The notes below the pieces were generated by a model that was not told the DNA's origin, made no database searches, and was given only the letters and a program-made list of their open reading frames with translations. Shown here piece by piece: positions 20,237-56,183 of a stretch of DNA of 64,000 bases (position 1 is the stretch's first letter; the number at the start of each line of letters is the position of its first letter). Source of the DNA: Candidatus Rifleibacteriota bacterium. GTDB taxonomy: Bacteria > Muiribacteriota > Ozemobacteria > Ozemobacterales > Ozemobacteraceae. Made by a program: the position numbers and the translations under genes. The DNA lies in assembly GCA_018818125.1 (NCBI GenBank), contig JAHISQ010000001.1, positions 1 to 64,000 on the forward strand. Reading direction: 5' to 3'.

Positions 20237-20506
20237 GGTCGTGCACCTGCCCTCGAACAAAAATCAATGGCACGCATCCTGAACTATAGGCTCCGGACAG
20301 GCGCTGCCACATCACCCGAAAGCGATCGTTTACCGTTGCTACCTTCCGGTCCTGGCGGAGTTCACGGACTTTCGCCGTGTGGAACCCATCCTTCAATGCT
20401 TCTAGAACTGGCCGTTACCACCAACCATGCCCTCTGGCAGGGATTCAATCCGCCGACGGGGATTTGCGGTTGTTAGAGGACCCCGAGCCCTCCACCTAGC
20501 ACGACA
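20237..20506 (-). ncRNA. ffs: Signal recognition particle RNA, large type with Alu domain
   Basis: About 270 nt. The hallmark Ffh-binding hairpin is seen on the minus strand as GCCAGGACCGGAAGGTAGCA (apical GGAA-type loop plus asymmetric loop). The 5' part GTGCTAGGTGGAGGG and CTCTAACAACCGCAAATCC matches the Alu-domain start of the Bacillus-type long SRP RNA. The two ends pair (GTCGTGC at 20505-20499 with GCACGAC at 20244-20238), which sets the limits. The RNA guides Ffh and FtsY in co-translational membrane targeting. It follows tRNA-Ser(GGA) by about 2 nt and so is probably processed from a common transcript with the tRNAs. Confidence 0.95.
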
Positions 20507-20507
20507 T

Positions 20508-20595
20508 CGGAAAGGGCGGGATTCGAACCCGCGGTAGGGGTAAACCTACACACGCTTTCCAAGCGTGCGCCTTAAACCAACTCGACCACCTTTCC
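20508..20595 (-). tRNA. tRNA-Ser (anticodon GGA)
   Basis: Acceptor arms GGAAAGG and CCTTTCC pair; the T arm GGTTCGAATCC and a long variable arm typical of serine tRNAs are present. The anticodon loop CTTGGAAAG gives GGA. CCA is not encoded. It lies immediately before the SRP RNA gene. Confidence 0.96.
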
Positions 20596-20675
20596 ATATC
20601 TTTTTCTGGACAGAAAAAACATTTTTACTCAAACCTGTTGGTAAAAGAAAAAATGTATCTGCTCAAAAAAAACAA

Positions 20676-20750
20676 CGCACCCGAGAGGACTCGAACCTCT
20701 GGCCCCCAGATCCGCAATCTGGTGCTCTATCCAAACTGAGCTACGGGTGC
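20676..20750 (-). tRNA. tRNA-Arg (anticodon GCG)
   Basis: Acceptor GCACCCG pairs with CGGGTGC; D arm AGCTCAG..GAGC; T arm AGAGGTTCGAGTCCTCT. The anticodon stem CCAGA/TCTGG encloses loop TTGCGGA, so the anticodon is GCG, reading CGC and CGU. Most bacteria use ACG modified to ICG for these codons, so this is unusual. CCA is not encoded. Confidence 0.93.
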
Positions 20751-20762
20751 AAAATTATACCA

Positions 20763-20851
20763 CGGAGAGAGGGGGATTTGAACCCCCGGTACCAGTTACC
20801 CAGTACGACAGTTTAGCAAACTGTTGGTTTAAGCCACTCACCCATCTCTCC
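20763..20851 (-). tRNA. tRNA-Ser (anticodon GCT)
   Basis: Acceptor GGAGAGA pairs with TCTCTCC; long variable arm; anticodon stem ACAGT/ACTGT with loop TTGCTAA gives GCT (AGC/AGU codons). CCA is not encoded. Confidence 0.95.
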
Positions 20852-20864
20852 AAGGTGTGCCAAA

Positions 20865-20947
20865 CGGAGGAAGTAGGATTCGAACCCACGGACCTTTCGA
20901 TCAACGGTTTTCAAGACCGCCGCCTTCGACCACTCGGCCATTCCTCC
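20865..20947 (-). tRNA. tRNA-Ser (anticodon TGA)
   Basis: Acceptor GGAGGAA pairs with TTCCTCC; anticodon stem CGGT/ACCG with loop CTTGAAA gives TGA (UCN codons); a variable arm and a T arm with GGTTCGAATCC follow. It is the first gene of the tRNA cluster on the minus strand. CCA is not encoded. Confidence 0.95.
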
Positions 20948-53633: not shown

Positions 53634-54725
53634 ATGAATGTGGCTGACAATCCCGAGTTGTGTGGGCTGATTGCCGTTGTTTTTGTCGTAGTGTTTATCT
53701 GGGCAAACCGCTGCTCAAAATGCGGAAAGCTTTTCACTACAAAGATCAGAAGTCGCACCAAAACCTCAGAAGGATACAGTCATTCCTGGGAAGTTGATGA
53801 TAAGACGCAGCGGGCAAAAAGTGTTCGCAGCTACCGCTACAACTATAACGAAACCTACGCTTGCAGCAAATGTGGCCATGAATACAGCACTTCGACGTCG
53901 AGTCCGCGGGATCTTTCCTGCGGTTACTTTCTTTCCGAAGAATCTGGCAAGGCTAAGGCGAGGGGATGCTTTAACCCGCTGACCTGGTGGAGCTGGATTC
54001 CCGGTAAAAAGTTCTTGCTGACGCTGGTTTTCTTGTTTTTTGTCGGCCTGGTTGTTTTTGACTACGAGGTTTTATGGTATCCAACCCATCTAGAGACCTA
54101 TCTGGACAACTATATTGAATATCTCGAAGATCCTTTTTCGCCCAGGGAAAACTGGCGGACCCAGCTTGAGGTTAAAGAAGGGCACTGGCAGACCCGCCGC
54201 TATATCCAGGAATATCAGGAAGTAGAGAGAGAAAACTGGGAAGAATACGTGCCAGAATCTGCAAAGATTATGGAAAAATCCACAAAAGACCGGCCAATGG
54301 AGGCGAATCCATACAGCATTAACAGTCTTGGCGGCCCAAAACCAGGCATCTGGGTTAAATATTTGACTGATCAATGGGTAACGATTGAGACTTTGACGGC
54401 CTCCGGTACTGGATTGCCGATTGTCTACCCCGGAGAAATCGTTACTGCGCCCGGTGAAAGCCAATATGGCGCGCGCAAGTCTGATTATACTTCTGTAAGT
54501 TTTTCTCTAACTTTTAGAGAGACTTCAAATGGCAGTTTAATCTCAACCGACAGTGTCGGCTACATCAGCATTCGTGATCTTGATAATACTTACCCGCGCG
54601 AAATAAGCGAGAACATATACAAGTTTTTTATGCAGAATACCGGTCTGTTGAAAGCCAGAATTAAACAATATAGTTTCAATTCAACCCCCAAAGTATATAT
54701 CTACGTCGAAGAACCACTTTACTGA
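53634..54725 (+). CDS. Zinc-ribbon membrane protein of unknown function
   Basis: A 363-residue protein: a membrane helix at residues about 10-25, two CxxC knuckles (CSKCGKLF and ACSKCGHEY, about 50 residues apart) that form a zinc ribbon, a second helix at about 120-140 (FLLTLVFLFFVGLVVFDY), and a soluble C-terminal part of about 220 residues with Tyr/Trp-rich segments. I do not recognise the family. GAGGAAA precedes the ATG. It is the last protein gene before the large RNA locus. Confidence 0.62.
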   Translation: MNVADNPELCGLIAVVFVVVFIWANRCSKCGKLFTTKIRSRTKTSEGYSHSWEVDDKTQRAKSVRSYRYNYNETYACSKCGHEYSTSTSSPRDLSCGYFLSEESGKAKARGCFNPLTWWSWIPGKKFLLTLVFLFFVGLVVFDYEVLWYPTHLETYLDNYIEYLEDPFSPRENWRTQLEVKEGHWQTRRYIQEYQEVERENWEEYVPESAKIMEKSTKDRPMEANPYSINSLGGPKPGIWVKYLTDQWVTIETLTASGTGLPIVYPGEIVTAPGESQYGARKSDYTSVSFSLTFRETSNGSLISTDSVGYISIRDLDNTYPREISENIYKFFMQNTGLLKARIKQYSFNSTPKVYIYVEEPLY

Positions 54726-54787: not shown

Positions 54788-54816
54788 TTGACATCAAATC
54801 CGTTTCGCGATAAACT
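54788..54816 (+). promoter_or_regulatory. Strong sigma-70 promoter of the large RNA
   Basis: TTGACA (54788-54793) and TAAACT (54811-54816) with exactly 17 bp between. The likely transcript start is at about 54823, where the outer closing stem of the RNA begins. Confidence 0.85.
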
Positions 54817-54835
54817 AGGAAAGTTGAACGAACAG

Positions 54836-54848
54836 ATCTTTGAAAATT
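54836..54848 (+). promoter_or_regulatory. boxA-like antitermination motif in the RNA leader
   Basis: The RNA contains TCTTTGAAA (54837-54845), matching the boxA core TCTTTRA of rRNA leaders. It lies in the 20-nt bulge between the two 5' closing stems, so it is left unpaired. NusB/S10-type antitermination would suit a long untranslated RNA. Confidence 0.6.
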
Positions 54849-55892
54849 GAAAAATAGAATCGGTGGCCGCAAGGCTGATGCTTCTGAGCTCCGGCAGGTT
54901 TCAGGCAGTTATCTCAAGATGGGTGCTGATGTCTGGTGACAGGCAAAACAACCCTGAAGGGAACAAATAACCTCGGGTAACGTGAAACTTAAGAAGAAGT
55001 ATGAGTTGGAAGGCAAAAATTCCATGGGGGGAGGACTCCGCATCGACGGAGAAACCAACTACAGCAGCAGAAAAACTCTAAGAGGGCCTCAAACCCTGTA
55101 AGAGGAAGGATTTATCCAGGGCTGTTGTAGCCAGATACCCCGAAGGACAAAAGGTCATGAGAGTTGTAATCGCGATGCCGGGGTGAAACTTGGCAGCGTA
55201 GGAGACGCTCTGAACCGGGAGTAAAGCTTCAAGGTTTGACTGAATCTCAAGATGGGAACCAGCTGCTTGCAGCAGGGGGCCAGTTAGAGCCAGGGTCGGG
55301 TAGAACGTAAGTTCAGCGGCCAGGTAGTGGGAACTGCCAGTGATTTCTGGAAGAAAACCATGTAGAGACAGTAACAGCGTAGGAGCATGATAGCTGGAAA
55401 CAGTTATCGATCGGATCAGTGTAAGACTCTGTAGATCAAGACCCTGCAAGTGCCAGTGGGGTGGAACAAACCCACAAGCTACCAAGGACGAAGTTCTGCT
55501 GAGAGGTTGAGAAAACCTGAGAGCGGAATGCGATAGGGCCGGAATCCTATCTGTCACGTCCTAGTTGTGAAGGCGCTAAGAGGGAAGAAACCTAGGAAGG
55601 CGTTGGCTTTATCCAGCCAATGAAGGTGTGTGTTGAACCTTGAAGTCGGCAGAAGCCCAGAAGAGGATAGAAAGACTCGGTTAACTCCAGTCCGGTGATT
55701 GTATCGACGGCCTCGAAGGCGATGAACGTCTGAGGCTTGGCGTAACCAAATATGCGTCATAGTGCAATTGCGTTAAAACTCTAGAAGGTATGTAACGACA
55801 TGAAGGGGTGATCAGAAGCGGTGACGCGACTGATTAATCACTCACTGACAGGTCTTCAAGAAGGAAAACCGATTCTAATTTGTTCGTTCAAT

Positions 55893-55922
55893 AAAAAACC
55901 CCCGGTTAAACGGGGGTTTTTT
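55893..55922. terminator. Intrinsic terminator of the large RNA, bidirectional
   Basis: AAAAAACCCCCG (55893-55904) pairs with CGGGGGTTTTTT (55911-55922) around GTTAAA. It starts 1 nt past the outer closing stem. The A run makes it work on the minus strand too, for the DUF3006-like gene at 55989. Confidence 0.95.
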
Positions 55923-55988: not shown

Positions 55989-56183
55989 TCAGTCCTCAAG
56001 GTCGACCGAAACGTAGTCACCCTCCTGGAGATCACGATTTTTGAATTTTTCGCATGGCACATATATTTCCATCATTGCTTCAGGATCTTCCGGGTGCCTG
56101 ATCACGACAACGACGATGCCAGCAGTGATACGATCTACAACCCCTCTTACCCGCCTTTTCTTTTTTGTTTCGCGGCCTCTCAT
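55989..56183 (-). CDS. Small DUF3006-like protein
   Basis: A 64-residue protein beginning with a basic RGRETKKKRRVR segment, then GVVDRITAGIVVVVIRHPED and a GDYVSVDLED end. The pattern (VDRIE..VVVL..., then a strand with GD-x-V-x-V) is that of the DUF3006 family, a small beta-barrel of unknown function. A GGGAGG ribosome site precedes the ATG at 56183, so it is a true gene. It converges on the large RNA and shares its terminator. Confidence 0.75.
   Translation of the reverse strand: MRGRETKKKRRVRGVVDRITAGIVVVVIRHPEDPEAMMEIYVPCEKFKNRDLQEGDYVSVDLED

Follow-up and report, generated by a model that had tools for sequence, protein, structure and literature searches.

Very few large structured bacterial RNAs outside rRNA are known, and three of them, GOLLD, ROOL and OLE, each turned out to have unexpected quaternary structures (PMC12286853). 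GOLLD is a very large and highly structured noncoding RNA of unknown function that is encoded by phages and prophages, often near tRNA islands (PMC12286853), ROOL is a large ornate stand-alone RNA, and OLE, with about 600 nt, is a chromosomal RNA that is conserved within a bacterial group. A fourth system that is relevant for comparison is the rRNA operon, in which a boxA element and a helix joining leader and trailer flank a long untranslated RNA and serve antitermination and maturation (PMC10250234). In the present study, we analyzed a stretch of 64,000 nucleotides (hereafter the window; contig JAHISQ010000001.1 of assembly GCA_018818125.1) from a Ca. Riflebacteria genome of the family Ozemobacteraceae. 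An earlier note, made from the sequence alone, had claimed that positions 54823-55922 of this window contain a 1.1-kb structured RNA with its own promoter and terminator but no supportable protein gene, and had suggested that it could represent a new family acting as a ribonucleoprotein (RNP) or RNA cage. Our analysis confirms the former claim and supports the new family, whereas for the suggested role only indirect arguments can be put forward. The RNA is larger than any non-ribosomal structured bacterial RNA class compared here, and a literature search found no paper on a Riflebacteria RNA.

Features of the RNA locus and other elements of the window (positions refer to the 64,000-nt window)
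Feature	Position	Strand	Remarks
Large SRP RNA	20239-20947	-	Next to four tRNA genes (Ser gga, Arg gcg, Ser gct, Ser tga)
Protein gene upstream of the RNA	ends at 54725		
Sigma-70-type promoter	54788-54816	+	TTGACA 54788-54793, 17 bp, TAAACT 54811-54816
Giant structured RNA	54823-55892	+	Start near 54823; about 1.07 kb to the trailer helix; 54823-55922 with terminator
Outer leader-trailer helix, 5' strand	54823-54837	+	15 bp; pairs with 55878-55892
boxA-like element	54835-54846	+	GATCTTTGAAAA, in the leader
Inner closing helix, 5' strand	54855-54864	+	TAGAATCGGT; pairs with 55868-55877
Domain A (5' domain)	54865-55016	+	Conserved GNRA loop at 54936-54939
Domain B	55017-55148	+	Weaker internal copy of domain C
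ORF of 159 aa	55078-55557	-	Rejected as coding
Domain E	55149-55440	+	Contains a weaker internal copy of domain D (55223-55389)
Domain C	55438-55587	+	Conserved core found across phyla (models R1, R3)
Domain D	55634-55810	+	Second cross-phylum domain (model R2)
Inner closing helix, 3' strand	55868-55877	+	
Outer leader-trailer helix, 3' strand	55878-55892	+	
Intrinsic terminator	55893-55922	+	C5/G5 stem, T6
Small ORF downstream of the RNA	55989-56183	-	

The note had named a hit to a known model or a lack of covariation as grounds to abandon its reading, and both tests came out in favour of the RNA. With the Rfam covariance models, nothing above gathering score was detected in the region, and at E-values up to 10 only terminator-like noise, almost all of it on the terminator hairpin, and one weak upstream match were obtained, which we rejected. 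For the other homologues, no hit to the GOLLD, ROOL or OLE models was found at E<=0.5. It is hence not GOLLD, ROOL, OLE, rRNA or an intron by model search, and genuine 16S genes of relatives were found separately. Two group II intron models do match in a third Riflebacteria family (genome G032, locus L122, 2494-2766, minus strand; handles with G stand for genomes, those with L for loci), but just downstream of the second RNA copy. A protein-coding gene mistaken for RNA can be refuted, as the antisense ORF of 159 aa showed no codon-position bias (e.g. 7/9/10 substitutions) and carried frameshifting indels in five relatives, while the neighbouring DUF711 gene, used as a control, showed 20/11/195 and none. 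The antisense ORFs as a group showed no bias, and the longest two carry frameshifts.

The predicted minimum free energy of the RNA is -371 kcal/mol compared to -317.6 +/- 10.0 for 60 dinucleotide shuffles (z = -5.4). Consensus folding of 24 homologues gave 217 pairs, 156 of which show at least one double, pair-keeping change. In a phylogenetic null test implemented in the manner of R-scape, in which columns are re-evolved on the tree, 25 of 217 pairs are significant across the family. When cross-phylum members were included, 19 of 47 pairs of domain D and 13 of 38 pairs of domain C are significant, and no significant pair lies off the structure. In domain D, 45 of 47 pairs show double changes and 92.4% of cells are paired, against 37-47% when partners are slid, although it has to be considered that this alignment was fitted to the model and includes five internal-repeat rows and hence leans towards the structure. 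In the inner closing helix (alignment columns 53-62 with 1239-1248), most pairs show double changes. The outer helix of the window was not reached by any of 100 shuffled 3' ends, and in relatives it is replaced by compensated sequences (GTTGAGTGG/CCACTCAAC, GGTTAAATGACC/GGTCATTTAACC). In the rumen genus (L018, L023, L025) it is partly replaced by a local hairpin near the 5' end (CTCCTCGCAAGGGGAG in L018 and L023). Domain A is absent or reduced in L018, and the member L020 (G014) lacks most of the core domain C yet keeps domain D and the ends.

A conserved core motif of the RNA, scanned against 84,980 species genomes, gave 23 loci, nearly all titled Riflebacteria or Ozemobacteraceae, and the few other titles (e.g. 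an 'Erysipelotrichia' and a 'Methylomirabilis' bin) are on contigs whose lengths match contigs placed in the window's own genus or family. By nucleotide search, the unit is present in 23 of 24 genomes of the family, including 10 of 10 high-quality ones, and was not found in the other genomes of that search. Two genomes of the rumen genus carry several copies (G021 on contigs C58, C145, C195 and C158; G018 on C182, C89 and C220), some of which are cut by contig ends.

Covariance models extended this distribution considerably. A model of domain C trained on the family (R1) found a second Riflebacteria family (four genomes), and a model of domain D (R2) found the third, with two copies. In the second family, the RNA has the same layout at about 1.5 kb, with a promoter TTGACA..TATAAT, ends that pair as GCTTTGAACA/TGTTCAAAGC and a terminator. 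R1 then found G217, in another phylum, and the broadened model R3 found G390, G227, G211 and two copies in G382. Phylum-level searches show that G217 and G382 share one phylum and that G390, G227 and G211 belong to three others, all unnamed here. These hits are unlikely to be due to chance, since R2, trained on the family alone, hits every one of these loci downstream of the core and on the same strand with E from 8e-13 to 1.4e-4, even though the E-values come from a shortened calibration and the G211 member is the weakest (R3 8e-8, R2 1.4e-4 to 3e-4). G217 has a 20-bp end-to-end helix spanning 1053 nt and the first G382 copy one of 12 bp, while shorter or GU-containing end helices were read by eye in G390, G227 and G211, several followed by a run of T. 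The distribution outside Riflebacteria is, however, patchy (2/5, 1/8 and 1/2 genomes of three of those phyla), and five of eight sampled Riflebacteria families gave no hit to R1 or R2. A borderline R3 hit in G235 (E 0.019) lies in what reads as protein-coding sequence and was discarded, which shows where the models stop being reliable, and a 34-nt hit in G049 (E 0.004) was not accepted.

A promoter matching 8-11 of 12 consensus positions with a spacing of 16-18 sits at the same place in 23 of 24 homologues, whereas L025 gave only a weak TTAAAA match. Most family homologues further carry a GWTCNTTKA-type element shortly after the start, and the same kind of element precedes 16S rRNA in the same genus (GATCCTTTGACATCG) and 16S or 23S genes of other families (GGTCATTGAAAACT, GGTCTTTGAAAA). 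The element is clear only in Ozemobacteraceae, weak in the second Riflebacteria family and not evident in the other phyla. That the RNA uses Nus-factor antitermination to escape Rho is an inference from sequence, but a reasonable one for a kilobase of untranslated RNA. One could also imagine that the rRNA-type leader and the leader-trailer helix reflect a decoy or sponge that sequesters a ribosomal or Nus-type protein under particular conditions, comparable to 6S RNA for polymerase and the proposed OLE-RpsU link. We consider this very unlikely, as no rRNA similarity was found and the boxA-like element lies in the leader, where it may only serve transcription.

The genomic context provides no indication of a cis-acting leader or riboswitch of the downstream genes, nor of an intron or mobile element. 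Beyond the position in an intergenic region nothing speaks for such a role, which is contradicted by the terminator that closes the unit, by a downstream gene that is not conserved among genomes and by the antisense orientation of the nearest downstream ORF in the window. The window neighbours are an ACT domain, DUF711, a cyclase and proteins without Pfam match, and no constant neighbour was found in the loci examined. A protein of about 1000 aa that looks like an outer-membrane protein ends just upstream of the RNA promoter in eight family loci (L034, 4635-7568, minus strand, and seven similar ones), but is absent beside the RNA in the window and most others. In G027, a selenocysteine tRNA (L120, 4270-4357, minus strand) lies within about 2 kb of the RNA core. 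Two pattern scans of viral contigs, the second of which has small reach as its pattern matched few of the known members, and blastn against phages and plasmids found nothing, and the tRNA cluster of the window is about 34 kb away. Since the RNA has its own promoter and terminator, no constant neighbour and no mobile-element signature, it most likely acts in trans.

Secondary hits of the models fall at the same alignment columns in many sequences, namely R3 at domain B (columns 243-410 in six homologues, best E 1.2e-4, and the nested hairpin 308-342 in eleven others) and R2 inside domain E (columns 489-679 in seven, best E 1.4e-6). As B and C also share topology in the consensus fold, the RNA is probably internally duplicated, B-E and C-D. 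About nine internal loops are 3x3 (one 4x4 with an A-U edge), most with an ARG strand facing GNA. Of 114 unpaired positions conserved in at least 95% of sequences, 72 are A, and several hairpin loops are conserved GNRA (54936, 55397, 55821). From this we infer with good confidence that the RNA folds into a compact body. From our point of view, it is somewhat more likely than not that it serves as the scaffold of a stable RNP, with its repeated 4-bp / 3x3 A-G loop / 4-bp modules as docking sites for proteins or for its own helices, although, as neither expression data nor a binding partner or conserved neighbour gene was found, this role rests on analogy and anatomy.

Alternatively, copies could assemble with each other through loop-loop and A-minor contacts without any protein, as known large ornate RNAs do (PMC12286853). 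Size, dense structure, the conserved GNRA loops and unpaired A, and an internal duplication that suits symmetric assembly would be in line with such an oligomer or nanocage. However, a simple scan of hairpin loops for 6-nt self-complementary (kissing) sequences was negative, no off-structure covarying pairs were detected and, unlike for GOLLD, no phage association was found in the searches described above. We thus regard this possibility as rather unlikely, even though the negative loop scan does not exclude oligomerisation. Less likely still is a giant ribozyme or catalytic RNP core, analogous in scale to RNase P or rRNA. The many invariant unpaired positions, the conservation of two domains across phyla and the rRNA-like leader could be explained in this way, but no known ribozyme or intron model matches in the RNA and no substrate or reaction is indicated. 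It is also possible, though less likely than not, that the RNA is an ancient, phylum-spanning machine of ribosomal scale, serving as a catalytic or structural core of an undescribed particle in several uncultured bacterial phyla.

Overall, the locus is almost certainly the type member of a new class of giant, stand-alone structured RNA. The resemblance to the large ornate RNAs exists only in the loose sense of size and structural density, and no tested defining feature of any of them was found. The RNA is longer than GOLLD, ROOL and OLE, it is kept by essentially the whole family Ozemobacteraceae without a detected phage link, it has homologues of the same domain order in four other phyla, it is probably internally duplicated, and, by sequence, it is transcribed behind an rRNA-like leader.
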